DNA of 64,000 nucleotides from Luteimonas sp. YGD11-2 (GTDB lineage Bacteria; Pseudomonadota; Gammaproteobacteria; Xanthomonadales; Xanthomonadaceae), in assembly GCF_004118975.1 (NCBI RefSeq), contig NZ_CP035376.1:1550001-1614000 (forward strand), read 5' to 3'. The notes below the pieces were generated by a model. That model was not told the origin of the DNA. It was given only the letters and a program-made list of their open reading frames with translations, and ran no database searches. Both the position numbers and the translations under genes were made by a program. Each line of letters starts with the position of its first letter. Position 1 is the first letter of the stretch. Below are positions 18,178-37,164 of the stretch, one piece after another.

Positions 18178-20115
18178 TCAGGCCGCCTGCGGCAGGCGGC
18201 GACTGCGGGCAAGGCCACCCACGTCGACGATCAGCGCCACCCGGCCGTCGCCGAGGATGGTCGCGCCGGAAATGCCTTCCACCCGGCGGTAGTTGCGCTC
18301 CAGGCTCTTGACCACGACCTGCTGCTGGCCGAGCAGCGCATCCACCTCGACCGCGAGGCGGCAGCCATCGCCCTCCACGACGACTGCGACGGGTGCATCG
18401 GTTCCGGCGCGCCCGTAACCGTAGGTGTCGCCAAGCGACAGCAGCGGCAGGAATTCGTCGCGCACCTTGAGCATGCGGCCCTGGCCCTTGACGGTGCGCA
18501 CGTCGCCGGGCCCCGGCTGCAGTGCCTCGCGCACATGGGTGAGCGGCAGCACCAGCGTCTCGTTGCCCACCGCCACGGTCATGCCGTCGAGGATGGCGAG
18601 CGTCAGCGGCAGGCGGATGGTCACCCGGGTGCCACGGCCGAGATGGCTTTCCAGCTGCACGCTGCCGCCCAGCTGGCGGATGTTGCTGCGCACGACATCC
18701 ATGCCCACGCCACGGCCGGACAGGTCGGTGACGGCATCGGCGGTGGAGAAGCCGGCCTGGAAGATCAGGTCCCACACCTGCGCGTCGGTGGGCTGCTCGG
18801 GCACCGCGAGCCCGCGCTCGCGCGCCTTGGCGAGGATGCGGTTGCGGTCGAGGCCGCGGCCATCGTCGCCGACCTCGATGACGATATGGCCGTCCTGGTG
18901 CGAGGCGGCGAGGGTGATCGTGCCGGTGGGCTCCTTGCCGGCGCCGCTGCGCGTGGCCGGGTCCTCGAGGCCGTGGTCGATCGCGTTGCGCACCAGGTGC
19001 ACCAGCGGATCGGCGATCTTCTCGATCAGGCCCTTGTCGAGTTCGGTCGCCTCGCCACTGGTCTGCAGGCGCACGAGCTTGCCGAGGCGCCCGGACAGGT
19101 CGCGCACCAGGCGCGGGAAACGGCGGAACACCGCGTCCACCGGCAGCATGCGCACGCCGATCACGGCGTCCTGCAGGTCGCGCGTGTTGCGCTCGAGCTG
19201 CTCGAGCGCGGCCTGCATGCGCTCGGCCAGCGCGCCCTCGAGCCCGGCGCCCAGCGCCTGCAGCATCGACTGGGTGATGACCAGTTCACCGACCAGGTTG
19301 ATCAGCCCGTCGATCTTGTCGACGCCGACGCGGATCGAACTTTCGGCTTCCGCGCCGGTTGTCTTGTTGGCCCCGGCGGCGGGGCCGGTATCGACCACCT
19401 GCTCCTGGATCGCCTCGATCTCCAGCCGGCATTCGTCGGCGACCCAGGCGAACACGTCGTCGATCGCGGCGCGCTTGACCGGCGCGCCCAGTTCCAGCGT
19501 CCAGCCGATATGCGCCTGCAGCGGATCCAGCGCATCGAACGCGGGCAGGGCGTCGAGCCTGGCCTCCACCTTCAGCGGGCCGAGTTCCTCGAGCTCGCGC
19601 AGGATCCGCAGGGGGTCGTTGCCGCTCATGAACAGCGACGGTTCGGGCTGGAAGCCGATCCGCCAGCCGATCAGGCGCGCGCCGGCGTCGGCGGCAACGG
19701 GTGCATCGGCGACCACGGGCACGGCCTCGCCTCCGAGCACCGCCGCAAGCCGCTGGTGGACCGCACGCACCTGCGCCGGGTCGGCCGGGCGCTGGTGCTC
19801 CGCCTCGTCGAGCAGTGCACGCAGCACGTCGACCGACCCCAGCATCGCGTCGAGCGCGGCGGCTTCCACCGCGCGCTCGCCGGCGCGGATCTGGTCGAGC
19901 AGCGTTTCCAGCACATGGGTCAGTTCGGCCGTCGCGGCGAAGCCGAAGGTGGCCGCGCCCCCCTTGATCGAGTGCGCCGCGCGGAACACCGAGTTGATGA
20001 GCTCGGCACCGCGTTCACCGGCGTCGAGCGCGAGCAGGCCGGCCTCCATCGCATCGAGCCCTTCGCGGCTCTCCTCGAAGTAGGTGGCGTGGAACCGCTG
20101 CAGGTCGATGCTCAA
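18178..20115 (-). CDS. cheA: Chemotaxis histidine kinase CheA, form with a P2 domain
   Basis: A 645-residue CheA with the complete domain set: P1 with the phosphorylated His in FRAAHSIKGGAATFG (near residue 48), a globular P2-like CheY-docking domain at about 149-230 (IGFQPEPSLFMSGNDPLRIL), P3 dimerisation (about 275-340), P4 kinase (NAIDHGLE, DDGRGLD, GRGVGMDVV) and P5, CheW-like, at the C-terminus. It is the second CheA of the window and differs from the one at 24092-25936 by having P2. It lies between a stand-alone cheY and ycgR. Confidence 0.95.
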   Translation of the reverse strand: MSIDLQRFHATYFEESREGLDAMEAGLLALDAGERGAELINSVFRAAHSIKGGAATFGFAATAELTHVLETLLDQIRAGERAVEAAALDAMLGSVDVLRALLDEAEHQRPADPAQVRAVHQRLAAVLGGEAVPVVADAPVAADAGARLIGWRIGFQPEPSLFMSGNDPLRILRELEELGPLKVEARLDALPAFDALDPLQAHIGWTLELGAPVKRAAIDDVFAWVADECRLEIEAIQEQVVDTGPAAGANKTTGAEAESSIRVGVDKIDGLINLVGELVITQSMLQALGAGLEGALAERMQAALEQLERNTRDLQDAVIGVRMLPVDAVFRRFPRLVRDLSGRLGKLVRLQTSGEATELDKGLIEKIADPLVHLVRNAIDHGLEDPATRSGAGKEPTGTITLAASHQDGHIVIEVGDDGRGLDRNRILAKARERGLAVPEQPTDAQVWDLIFQAGFSTADAVTDLSGRGVGMDVVRSNIRQLGGSVQLESHLGRGTRVTIRLPLTLAILDGMTVAVGNETLVLPLTHVREALQPGPGDVRTVKGQGRMLKVRDEFLPLLSLGDTYGYGRAGTDAPVAVVVEGDGCRLAVEVDALLGQQQVVVKSLERNYRRVEGISGATILGDGRVALIVDVGGLARSRRLPQAA

Positions 20116-24091: not shown

Positions 24092-25936
24092 TCAGACCGT
24101 GCGCAACGCGTCCACGTCGAGGATCAGCGCCAGGCGGCCGTCGCCGATCAGGGTGGCGCCGGCGTAGCCGGGCAGGCCACGCAGGGCGCGTGGCAGCGGC
24201 TTGATCACCACCTCCTCGCGGCCGCGCACCTCGTCGACCACCAGGCCGAAGCGGGCGTCGCCGCGCTGCAGGACCACGATGGTGAGCAGCGGCGTCTCCG
24301 GTGCCGGTTGCCGCAGCCAGTGCCGCAGGTCCAGCAGCGGCAGCGTGTGCGAGCGGCGGTCGAGCGCGGCGCGGCCGTCGAACCAGTTCACCGCATGGGT
24401 GGGTGCATGCAGCACTTCCTGCACCCGCGCCAACGGCAAGGCATAGGCATCGCCGGCCGCCTGCACCAGCAGCGTCGGCAGGATCGCCAGCGTCAGCGGC
24501 ACGCGCAGCGAGAACCGGCTGCCGCGCCCGAGTTCGGAGTGCACCTGGATCTGCCCGCTGAGCTCGCGGATGCGCGACTGCACCACGTCCATGCCGACGC
24601 CACGGCCGGAAATGTCGCTGACCTCGCTGCGCGTCGAGAAGCCGGGCATGAACACCAGGTGCAGGCATTCCTCCACGCTCAGCCGCGCCGCGGTCTCGGC
24701 ATCGATCAGACCCTTCTCGCGCGCCTTGGTGCGCAGGCGCTCGGGGTCGATGCCGGCACCGTCGTCCTGCACCTCGATGCCGACATAGTCGCCCTGCTGC
24801 TGGGCGATCAGCCTCACCTTGCCGGCGCGCGGCTTGCCGGTGGCCTCGCGCAGGGCCGGTGCTTCGATGCCGTGGTCGATGGCGTTGCGCACCAGGTGCA
24901 CCAGCGGATCCGCCAGCGCCTCGACCAGGTTGCGGTCGAGCTCGGTCTCGGCGCCGACGAGCTCGAGGTCCACTTCCTTGTCGAGTGCGCGCGCGACGTC
25001 ACGCGCGAGCTTGGGGAAGCGCGCGAACACCTTGCCCACCGGCTGCATGCGGGTGTGCATCACCGCGCCCTGCAGGCGCGCGGTGGCGTTGTCGAGCGTG
25101 CTCACGGCACGGTCGAGCTCCTCGTCGCGCAGCCGCGCGCGCAGGGTCTTGAGGCGGTTGCGCGCCAGTACCAGCTCGCCGACGAGATCGACGATGGCGT
25201 CCAGGCGGCGGGTGTCCACGCGTACGGTGTGTTCGCGCTCGGCAGTGGCCGCTCCATTGGCGGCCTGCGGGGCTGCCGGCTTCGGCGCGGCGGCGGCAGG
25301 CGGCGCAGGTGCGGGCGTCGGCGTGCGCGGGGCGGCCGGCGGAGTCACCTGGGCTGCGGCAGCTCCGGGCGGGGCCGACCCGTGCAACTGGTCGAGCAGC
25401 GCCTCGAATTCGTCGTCGCTGATCGCCCCGCCGTTTCCGGCTGCACCGACCGGGCCCGGCGCCGCGTTGCCGTGCAGCTGGTCGAGCAGTGCCTCGAATT
25501 CGTCGTCGCCGATCATGTCGCCATTGGCGGCGGCGGCGGCGGGCGTGGCGGTCGTGGCCGGCGGCGCAAGCGAGAAGCCGTTGACGACCGCGGCGGGCGC
25601 GCGCGGCACCTCGCTGCCGGAGTCGATCGCGTCCACCATCGCCTGCAGCCAGTCCAATGACTGCTGCGCGGCATCGAAATGCCGCGCCTCCAGCGTCGCC
25701 TGGCCGCTGCGTGCAGCGCCCAGGGTTTCCTCGGCCGCGTGGCAGAGCTCCACCAGCGGGGTCACGCCGAGAAAGCCGGCGCCGCCCTTGAGCGTGTGGA
25801 ACGCGCGGAAGACCGCGTTCAACTGTTCGCGGTCGCCGGGCGTCTGCTCCAGCGCCACCAGCTGCCCGCCGAGGTCGTCGAGCAGCTCGCGTGCCTCGAT
25901 CACGAAGTCGGCGGCGATTTCCGGCGAGGCGTTCAC
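24092..25936 (-). CDS. cheA: Chemotaxis histidine kinase CheA, P2-less form with two FliM-like motifs
   Basis: The 614-residue kinase has P1 with His47 (FRAFHTLKGGAGF), then an Ala/Pro-rich linker of about 130 residues in place of a globular P2, P3 (HTVRVDTRRLDAIVDLVGEL, about 250-320), P4 (NAIDHGIE, DDGAGIDP, GRGVGMDVV) and P5. The linker holds two copies of DDEFEALLDQLHG spaced 30 residues (about 144-156 and 174-186). Start is GTG at 25936, 4 bases after the cheZ stop. Position after fliA-cheY-cheZ and before motC-D marks it as the main flagellar CheA. Confidence 0.95.
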   Translation of the reverse strand: MNASPEIAADFVIEARELLDDLGGQLVALEQTPGDREQLNAVFRAFHTLKGGAGFLGVTPLVELCHAAEETLGAARSGQATLEARHFDAAQQSLDWLQAMVDAIDSGSEVPRAPAAVVNGFSLAPPATTATPAAAAANGDMIGDDEFEALLDQLHGNAAPGPVGAAGNGGAISDDEFEALLDQLHGSAPPGAAAAQVTPPAAPRTPTPAPAPPAAAAPKPAAPQAANGAATAEREHTVRVDTRRLDAIVDLVGELVLARNRLKTLRARLRDEELDRAVSTLDNATARLQGAVMHTRMQPVGKVFARFPKLARDVARALDKEVDLELVGAETELDRNLVEALADPLVHLVRNAIDHGIEAPALREATGKPRAGKVRLIAQQQGDYVGIEVQDDGAGIDPERLRTKAREKGLIDAETAARLSVEECLHLVFMPGFSTRSEVSDISGRGVGMDVVQSRIRELSGQIQVHSELGRGSRFSLRVPLTLAILPTLLVQAAGDAYALPLARVQEVLHAPTHAVNWFDGRAALDRRSHTLPLLDLRHWLRQPAPETPLLTIVVLQRGDARFGLVVDEVRGREEVVIKPLPRALRGLPGYAGATLIGDGRLALILDVDALRTV

Positions 25937-25940
25937 GGTG

Positions 25941-26549
25941 TCAGAGCCCGAGGTTCGACAGCAGGTCGTCGGCGTCGCTCTGGCCCACGGTGCCGCGATC
26001 CAGCCCCCCGACCGCCGGGCCGTGGCCACGGTTCGGGCACGCCGGCTCGTCCTTCGGCGGCAGGCCGAGTTCGCCGAAACCCTCGTGCACGCCACGCACG
26101 ATCGATGCGACGCGGCGGATGATCTGCCCGCCGAGGTCCTGGTGGCTCTGTGCCAGCGCCATCTCGCGCAGGTTGTCGCGCAGCGCCTCGACGGTACCGG
26201 CCTGGCTGTCGTCGAGCGGGCCGTCCTTGAGGCGGGCGACCAGCGCACGGCTGTCGTCGATCAGGTCGAGGGTGCGATGGGTGGCCTCCTCGGTCATCGC
26301 CACCACGTGGTCGAGGCGGGCGCAGGCGTCGTCGAGGTTGCCGCCCGACGGTGCCGGGGGCAGGGCATCGAGCGCCTGTTCGAGCTCGCGCGCCAGCCGG
26401 CCGAGGCCGCTGACCAGCGTATGCGCGCGCGATGCGGCGATCGCATCGACGTGGCGGCGCCAGGCGTCCTCGTCGCCGCGCTCCAGCGCGTCGAGTGCAT
26501 CCTGCAGCAGGCGCGCGACCGGGACGTCGTCCGCCACCGCCGCGTTCAA
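25941..26549 (-). CDS. cheZ: CheY-P phosphatase CheZ
   Basis: The 202-residue helical protein has the catalytic segment [17 protein letters not shown] with the conserved Asp and Gln, and a C-terminal peptide [11 protein letters not shown] equivalent to the CheY-binding tail of enteric CheZ. It begins with TTG, whose last bases overlap the cheY stop (TTGA). CheZ shuts off the motor signal by dephosphorylating CheY. Confidence 0.92.
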
Positions 26550-26938
26550 GCGCCGCCCCCGAGGCGTTCGAACACCTTGTTGAGCTTCTCTTCCAGGGTC
26601 TGCGCGGTGAACGGCTTGATGATGTAGCCGTTCACGCCGTTCTGCGCGGCCTCGATGATCTGTTCGCGCTTGGCCTCGGCGGTCACCATCAGCACCGGCA
26701 GGGTGCGGAACTTGGCATCGGCGCGGATCTCGCGCAGCAGCTCGATGCCGGTCATGCCGGGCATGTTCCAGTCGGTGATCACCAGTTCCACCGCGTCCTG
26801 CCGCAGCACGGCCAGCGCGCTGTGGCCGTCCTCGGCCTCGACGGTGTTGTTGAAGCCGAGGTCGGTCAGCAGGTTCTTGATGATCCGCCGCATCGTCGAG
26901 AAGTCATCGACGATCAGCACGCGCATGTTCTTGTTCAA
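26546..26938 (-). CDS. cheY: Chemotaxis response regulator CheY
   Basis: A 130-residue receiver very close to enteric CheY: DD at 11-12, phospho-Asp56 ([11 protein letters not shown]), Thr in MVTAEA and Lys in GYIIKPF. It is encoded right after fliA (25 bp gap) and overlaps cheZ, so it is the motor-binding CheY of the flagellar system. The other stand-alone receivers in the window are less similar. Confidence 0.96.
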
Positions 26939-36154: not shown

Positions 36155-37164
36155 GCGGGCAGGTCCTGGGGGTCGGTGCGGCGCTGCGGCTGCGTGCCGG
36201 GCGGATGGGTCCGGGTGATCTTCACCACGTTGTTGCCGTTGGCGGTGCCGAAGCGGCCGGTGAAGACCGGGATGTCCTCGATGCAGATCGGCACCTCCTC
36301 GGGGAGGTCGATCGGGATGATGTCGCCCACCTTCAGCCGGGTGAGCTGGCGCAGGTCGATGCGGCGGCGCGCCAGCACGCTCGACACGTTGACCTCGGCC
36401 GACATCAGCTGCTCGCGCATCGACACGTTCCAGCTCTCGTCGCGGTCGACGCGGTCGGACTGGATGCCGGCATCGAGCAGCTCGCGGATCGGCTCGAGCA
36501 TCGAGTAGGGCAGGGTGACGTGGATCTCGCCGCCGCCGCCTTCGAGGTCCACGTGGAAGCGGCTGACCACCACGTACTCGCGCGGGGTGACGATATTGGC
36601 GAAGTGCGGGTTGATCTCGGAGTTGAGGTATTCGCACTCCACGTCCAGCACCGGTGCCCAGGCCTCGGCGAGGTCGGCGAAGGTCTGCTTGAGCATCAGC
36701 TGGATCACCCGCATCTCGGTCGCGGTGAACTCGCGGCCCTCGATGCGGGTGGGGTAGCGGCCATCGCCGCCGAAGAAGTTGTCGACCACCGAGAACACCA
36801 GCTTCGGCTCGAACACGATCAGCCCGGTGCCGCGCAGCGGCTTGAACTTGATCAGGTTGAGGTTGGTCGGCACGTAGAGCTGGTGCAGGTAGTCGCCGAA
36901 CTTGATCAGGTCGATTCCGCGCACGGAGATGTCGGCGGAGCGGCGGATCAGGTTGAACAGGCCGATCCGCCACAGCCGCACGAAGCGCTCGTTGACCATC
37001 TCCATGGTCGGCATGCGGCCGCGGATGATGCGGTCCTGGCTGGCGAAGTCGTAGGTGCGCGCGACGCCCGGGTCGGGCGCCGGCTCGGTGTCGACCACGC
37101 CCGAGTCGACGCCGTGCAGCAGCGCGTCGATCTCGTCCTGGGACAGCAGGTCGTGGGTGCTCAT
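36151..37164 (-). CDS. fliM: Flagellar motor switch protein FliM
   Basis: The 337-residue FliM has the N-terminal CheY-binding peptide LSQDEIDALLHG (residues 7-18), a flexible linker, the middle CheC-like domain (FVRLWRIGLFNLIRRSADI, GGDGRYPTRIEGREFT) that binds FliG and a C-terminal SpoA domain. The N-terminal peptide is relevant because the P2-less CheA of this window carries two near copies of it. Confidence 0.95.
   Translation of the reverse strand: MSTHDLLSQDEIDALLHGVDSGVVDTEPAPDPGVARTYDFASQDRIIRGRMPTMEMVNERFVRLWRIGLFNLIRRSADISVRGIDLIKFGDYLHQLYVPTNLNLIKFKPLRGTGLIVFEPKLVFSVVDNFFGGDGRYPTRIEGREFTATEMRVIQLMLKQTFADLAEAWAPVLDVECEYLNSEINPHFANIVTPREYVVVSRFHVDLEGGGGEIHVTLPYSMLEPIRELLDAGIQSDRVDRDESWNVSMREQLMSAEVNVSSVLARRRIDLRQLTRLKVGDIIPIDLPEEVPICIEDIPVFTGRFGTANGNNVVKITRTHPPGTQPQRRTDPQDLPA

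Follow-up and report, generated by a model that had tools for sequence, protein, structure and literature searches.

A tandem FliM/CheZ-like peptide in the P1-P3 linker of a P2-less flagellar CheA as a candidate docking site for CheY

In E. coli, the P2 domain of CheA holds CheY near the phosphorylated histidine of P1. A stretch of 64,000 nucleotides of Luteimonas sp. YGD11-2 (contig NZ_CP035376.1, positions 1,550,001 to 1,614,000; hereafter the window) encodes a flagellar CheA in which no such domain was found, and raises the question of how CheY is recruited to a kinase of this type. The case is a frequent one: in the survey of Berry et al. 2023 (PMC10782961), more than half of the CheAs are without P2 and have an unstructured stretch there instead, as does the CheA described here. 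The P2 section of that paper takes P2 as dispensable and offers no other route of CheY recruitment for P2-less CheAs, and the words 'motif', 'FliM' and 'disordered' are absent from its main text. A conserved peptide resembling those of FliM and CheZ, found in the linker of the window CheA and of many of its relatives, is a direct candidate answer.

The flagellar cheA gene lies on the minus strand and is preceded by cheY and cheZ. Its relevant parts are the following, residues being counted from the GTG at 25936.

24092..25936, minus strand: flagellar CheA (P1-linker-P3-P4-P5), GTG start at 25936, from Pfam and AlphaFold2
25229..25615, minus strand: P1-P3 linker, about residues 108-236, predicted disordered outside three helices, those of the two motifs and a short one at 115-119
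25469..25507, minus strand: motif copy 1, DDEFEALLDQLHG, D144-G156, from the sequence; predicted helix 144-155; conserved in 68 CheAs
25379..25423, minus strand: motif copy 2, ISDDEFEALLDQLHG, residues 172-186, from the sequence; predicted helix 174-185; conserved in 68 CheAs

Pfam (E≤1) recognised the Hpt, H-kinase_dim, HATPase_c and CheW domains in this protein, and at the same threshold no P2 or CheY-binding model matched it. Within the linker, DDEFEALLDQLHG occurs twice, at residues 144-156 and 174-186 (D174-G186 is encoded by 25379-25417). An AlphaFold2 model of the protein was made with 68 sequences and had a mean pLDDT of 81.7. In the linker, pLDDT fell below 50 in residues 128-142, 156-172, 186-199, 205-210, 212-219 and 224-238, and two isolated helices, 144-155 and 174-185, coincided with the motifs (ten-residue block means of 65 and 70). 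At these values, each copy is predicted to be a short helix on a flexible tether, as in the FliM/CheZ type of motif. Neither Pfam, nor AlphaFold2, nor a home-made profile for P2-like domains (see below) found a folded domain between P1 and P3, and a PDB sequence search using the motif returned no match. An earlier note on this DNA had claimed that the motif stands twice in the linker, at about residues 144-156 and 174-186, and that no globular P2 is present between P1 and P3. Sequence and coordinates bear out the first claim, the Pfam search and the disordered AlphaFold2 linker the second; the hidden P2 fold that the note had named beforehand as speaking against its reading was not predicted in the linker with the 68 sequences used.

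To see how far the repeat extends, a search for relatives of this CheA covered 61 genomes from the order and 274 from the class. Eighty loci around good matches, mostly of about 12.5 kb, were retained and gave, together with the window, 81 gammaproteobacterial CheAs. The motif was present in one to four copies, without a P2-like block, in 73 of the 81; this is no random sample, because the 80 regions were hand-picked from good matches, mostly one per family. The remaining eight had neither device (4, including one, L127, in which degenerate copies can be seen by eye), the P2-like block only (1), or an unreadable linker (3). One copy was found in 8 of the motif-bearing CheAs, two in 33, three in 29 and four in 3. 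A first linker tally could read 71 of the 81 proteins; the looser, later one left unread 3 of these 81, 5 of the 80 CheAs of the named set and 4 of the 21 paralogues described below. Its motif pattern is loose, and the paralogous CheAs act as its negative control.

The motifs of these CheAs have a consensus of about E-I-T-D-D-E-F-E-A-L-L-D-Q-L-H-G, in which the E, F, L and D of E-F-x-x-[L]-L-D are nearly fixed. In an alignment of 68 CheAs, conservation was at least 90% at E146, F147, L150, L151, D152, I172, E176, F177, L181 and D182, a level that few other linker positions reached. Eight named CheAs were aligned as well, half of them from Vibrio, Salinivibrio and Photobacterium, and between the ends of P1 and P3 strong conservation was confined to the motifs. 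In the named set, which comes from one scan (n=80), the motif was found in 41 CheAs, absent from 34 and unread in 5. Carriers include Stenotrophomonas, Pseudomonas, Vibrio, Photobacterium, Shewanella, Marinobacter and Alteromonas. By their titles, the records without it belong to other classes or phyla or to the Betaproteobacteria, with the exception of a Lysobacter record (L152), in whose CheA a single degenerate copy can be made out by eye. In 34 of these 80 CheAs, mostly outside the classical Gammaproteobacteria, motif and P2-like block were both absent, which means that a lack of P2 does not require the motif. No CheA in the loci scanned combined the motif with a receiver domain. The alignment of orthologues for repeat number and conservation that the earlier note had proposed thus came out in its favour (1-4 copies in 73 of 81, core residues at least 90% conserved in 68 CheAs), and a chance repeat was rejected on the first linker tally and the conserved positions. 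We conclude that the repeated CheA motif is confirmed as a widespread feature, no quirk.

Two loci of the collection deserve a separate mention. The CheA linker of L109 (genome G250) has three longer repeats, LPEGVDPDG[ED]ITDDEFEALLNQRD, in which the FliM-like half is kept and the LHG end lost. A contig titled Klebsiella pneumoniae MAG (L148) encodes a motif-type CheA and a close ParC, and its title looks doubtful for that reason.

The N-terminus of FliM and the tail of CheZ are peptide ligands of CheY. All three proteins are encoded in the window:

37117..37149, minus strand: FliM N-terminal LLSQDEIDALL, FliM by Pfam, rank 1 against the 11-residue CheA-motif profile
25944..25976, minus strand: CheZ C-terminal tail, 11 residues, CheZ by Pfam
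26546..26938, minus strand: CheY, presumed ligand, Pfam Response_reg

We take LLSQDEIDALL of the window FliM to be the classic CheY-binding peptide. FliM was missed by a strict log-odds profile built from the CheA motifs, which probably reflects their invariant F at the position of the FliM I; the searches in both directions, from CheA to FliM and from FliM to CheA, were made with BLOSUM-averaged profiles. When all ORFs of at least 100 aa in the six frames of the window were scanned with CheA left out, the 11-residue CheA profile placed LLSQDEIDALL first among 87,289 positions. The FliM N-terminus ranked 4 with a 17-residue profile and 6 with a 12-residue profile of the C-terminal part, and the window CheZ tail ranked 52 with the 11-residue one.

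The reciprocal profile was made of 29 FliM N-termini only, and run over the window and 160 che loci, 1,496,424 positions in six frames (CheA ORFs make up 117,079 of the 1,565,874 residues scanned). It omits L224, one of 30 loci, which falls off the N-terminal pattern, and the pattern itself demands a FliM-like N-terminus. Its top 100 contained 57 CheZ, 33 CheA and 4 FliM matches, and 6 unlabelled ones. All 57 labelled CheZ matches lay at most 25 residues from the C-terminus, and all 33 CheA matches (27 proteins) had the EFE-type core. By Pfam, five of the unlabelled matches fall in four CheZ proteins (L132, L187, L193 and, twice, L178) and one in FliM (L200), so that the top 100 consists only of CheZ tails, CheA linkers and FliM. 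In the top 200, 95 matches were to CheZ, 84 to CheA, of which 82 show the core, and 5 to FliM; 16 were unlabelled. Pfam assigned nine of these 16 to CheZ or FliM, one (L215) with a score under the cut-off, and the other seven are neither, as far as checked. CheZ tails of the survey, mostly GQD[DE]VDDLLSSLGF, score high against the FliM profile, and the CheA copies have the S-x-[DE]-[DE]-[IVF]-[DE]-x-L-L-like core of the FliM/CheZ type. We conclude that, at the level of sequence, the likeness of the CheA motif to FliM exceeds chance. The alignment of the CheA repeats with the FliM N-terminus, which the earlier note had proposed, is upheld in both directions, and its placing of the CheZ tail in the same class agrees with the 57 labelled tails.

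In the course of these scans, CheZ-like proteins of Bacteroidota-type records (L178, L193, L201 and L202, the last below the Pfam cut-off) were seen to have SQDDIDALF-like ends, in tandem in L178.

Since the motif class is shared with the FliM N-terminus and the CheZ tail, both CheY ligands, the simplest reading would be that CheA works with a peptide of this kind as well. On these grounds, tandem short linear motifs of the FliM/CheZ type probably stand in for P2 in docking CheY to CheA. We infer CheY as the ligand, as well as the binding face, a weak affinity and an effect on phosphotransfer. The linker would offer two copies (one to four in relatives) of a motif of roughly [ED]-I-[ST]-[DE]-[DE]-E-F-[ED]-x-L-L-D-x-L-H-G, each copy probably forming a short helix that lies against the alpha4-beta5-alpha5 face of CheY. 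The copies would keep CheY near the phosphorylated P1 histidine, tandem weak peptides doing here the job of the E. coli P2, and the same face of CheY would be used in turn at the kinase, the phosphatase and the motor. By their titles, two works cited in PMC3774744 deal with the overlap of the CheZ-, CheA- and FliM-binding surfaces on CheY and with the CheZ C-terminal peptide; a passage of PMC12270135 also names the CheZ C-terminal CheY-binding peptide.

One surveyed locus, L116 (genome G160), has cheA directly after cheY, in the same frame and with no cheZ between. Reading through three stops gives a chain of CheY, P1 and linker, which was modelled with AlphaFold2. The three motif helices of this chain behaved alike (block means 81, 87 and 85, with the linker at about 39-57); the chain has one CheY, and one CheY presents one such face, so that like confidence in all three helices is no sign of docking.

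Compared with known ligands, the CheA copies resemble the FliM peptide in their x-[LI]-[ST]-x-[DE]-E-[IF]-[DE]-A-L-L core, predicted as a short helix on a tether. They differ in standing in a kinase linker and in tandem, with F for the I of FliM and a D-x-L-H-G end for its HGV. With the CheZ tail they share D-[DE]-[VF]-[DE]-x-L-L-[SD]-x-L on a flexible arm; that tail is terminal, whereas the CheA motif is internal and usually repeated. Like the P2 or CheY-binding domain of E. coli and T. maritima CheA, they stand between P1 and P3 with presumably the same task, but as peptides only, no folded domain having been found. We rate the type of peptide and its likely task as known, and the place in CheA and the tandem form as what is new.

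Another partner has been described for this part of CheA. According to PMC5706961 and PMC7534058, the LID lies in the same part of Vibrio CheA and has ParP as its binding partner; it is described as restricted to systems with ParC/ParP, and PMC7534058 places it between P2 and P3. The motifs thus share with the LID the part of the protein and the class of CheA, the difference being that the named partner of the LID is ParP. In the window CheA the motifs sit between P1 and P3 with ParC/ParP nearby, which is the described position by which the LID is known here. As the motifs are the sole strongly conserved P1-P3 stretches in the eight aligned CheAs, the LID probably overlaps or neighbours them.

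A division of labour can be imagined, overlapping with the docking of CheY proposed above, in which some copies bind CheY and the last one, with a GKGP-like end, binds ParP. The copies do differ in their ends, and their number varies from 1 to 4; the core is nevertheless alike among copies and the GKGP end is absent from both window copies, and we regard this arrangement as possible but doubtful.

We think it unlikely that the motifs are simply the LID, or its core, and serve, by binding ParP at its CheW-like AIF domain, to anchor CheA to the polar ParC/ParP system rather than to receive CheY. Besides the common location and the Vibrio-group linkers, which have no strongly conserved stretch other than the motifs, the GKGPS-like extra end on the last copy of the Vibrio group speaks for it, and a close ParC was found in 57 of the 81 surveyed loci, window included. 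The match to FliM and CheZ is left unexplained by it. Searches did not distinguish ParP from CheW, and the comparison therefore rests on ParC. ParC was searched for in 23 genomes, chosen mainly because the fetched locus had none: 11 had a match of 1e-53 or better, and 12 only matches of about 1e-13 to 1e-35. Among these 12 without a close ParC, the motif was absent from three (G127, G257 and G120) and copies were degenerate in G070, G250 and G084, both of which agree with the LID; one further genome (G330) was unread. Against it, recognisable copies were kept in eight of the 12 (G022, G070, G081, G213, G237, G250, G061 and G084; best ParC match about 1e-30 to 1e-35), four of them (G022, G081, G250 and G084) being listed as 100% complete, and the three genomes lacking both ParC and motif belong to another CheA subgroup, in which CheZ was not detected. 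By these matches, the motif outlives ParC in some lineages, yet motif and ParC are also correlated. Should the motif dock CheY as we propose, the LID may gain a second meaning, as ParP and CheY might be competitors for these repeats or use them jointly.

The suggestion of the earlier note that ParP itself carries the motif at its N-terminus (VDDYVDLLL) is not supported, and ParP was rejected as a motif carrier: this stretch ranked 93 of 87,289 against the 11-residue CheA profile, and three of six ParP candidates (ORFs beside parC with a readable start) had what looks like a different stretch, YL[ED][DE]LL. These ParP-like proteins, in L069, L089 and L152, have it near their start, where it is a candidate contact for ParC; in the part of PMC5706961 that deals with it, the ParP N-terminus mediates ParC binding.

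A further reading sees in the motif a SHOCT-like helix for oligomerisation or for an intramolecular contact, its likeness to FliM being convergence on a helix-start pattern. Pfam SHOCT matched 34 of the 68 CheAs (E≤0.01, best E 3.9e-9), and part of the FliM likeness may indeed reflect a general helix-start pattern. In the window CheA, the SHOCT model (PF09851) reached 13.8 bits against a cut-off of 27 and covered model positions 13-27 of 28, and a general pattern accords poorly with a FliM-only profile whose top 100 are FliM, CheZ and CheA only. We consider it improbable.

The window encodes a second CheA (gene 18178-20115), whose linker is of a different kind.

19417..19665, minus strand: P2-like block of the second CheA, from a match to the home-made profile and alignment, not called by Pfam or PDB sequence searches

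Twenty CheAs of another subgroup were hand-picked from the lists of relatives and gave, with this one, a set of 21 paralogues. In 18 of the 21, the window's second CheA included, some 85 residues form a conserved block (W-x-I-x-F-x-P ... G-N-D-P ... D-V-F-x-W-V). The profile was seeded by two sequences (L255 and L261) that meet a narrow pattern, and then matched the 18; an earlier seed, the window's second CheA alone, had matched 2 of 90. The block was not called P2 by Pfam or by PDB sequences, and the Pfam CheY-binding model matched 1 of the 21 proteins. With hhalign it weakly matched a piece of a CheA taken as E. coli-like (L267; probability 8.4%, P 0.004). From its position, its conservation and this weak match, we read the block as a probable P2.

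Motif and block did not occur together in the linkers read: the motif was found in none of the 17 paralogue linkers readable by script (4 of 21 were unreadable), and none was seen by eye in the printed linkers either. Over the three sets, no protein had both in 170 readable rows, 12 of 182 being unread. A hidden or shrunken P2 in the flagellar CheA linker, to which one might turn because Pfam misses even the block of the second CheA, so that absence of P2 by Pfam is weak evidence, is hardly credible and was rejected, as AlphaFold2 with 68 sequences gives a disordered linker and the P2-like profile, which matches 18 of 21 paralogues, matches no CheA read as motif-bearing.

Seventeen of the 20 paralogue genomes also have a closer match to the window CheA, and the motif was read in 14 of these (not in G032, G092 and G129). 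The three without a closer match are G331, G204 and G330; the first survey contains the last two as well, under L134 and L133. Two CheAs of one genome, those of the window included, seem to differ in the device that occupies this place. In this set, a paralogous CheA, apparently L255 (G092), matches a globin domain which, by eye, follows the P2-like block.

The class of CheA for which docking of CheY by tandem peptides is proposed includes CheAs of Pseudomonas, Vibrio and Shewanella. A tentative extension, to which we give somewhat short of an even chance, is that CheA is a multivalent depot for CheY, and that kinase, phosphatase and motor share one motif across much of the Gammaproteobacteria (Pseudomonas, Vibrio, Shewanella), the copy number setting the speed of CheY loading and release. 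Other P2-less lineages (Campylobacterota, Betaproteobacteria) would have linker peptides of their own in the same place, and docking by peptides rather than by P2 may be widespread.

No description of the CheA motif was found in the open-licence literature, a search outside which most subscription papers fall, and the string EFEALLD and four similar strings were absent from the open-licence texts searched. Work on Pseudomonas putida (PMC11978298) regards the region as an ordinary P2.

Linkers of other types were also seen in the records scanned. The CheAs of L173, L176 (Helicobacter) and L181 (Sulfuricurvum) have a receiver domain, no P2-like block, and a linker motif [ML]S-x-[AE]-[EQ]-VEAEI[EQ]RLL, present twice in L181, whose start is partly FliM-like against an approximate FliM profile (a rounded mix of three 11-mers). 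Five betaproteobacterial records (L180, L182 and L184-L186), with no P2-like block by the home-made profile, have in common a linker stretch that is not FliM-like, [PS][DV]W-x-x-L-x-x-A-[VL]-T/S-G-like.
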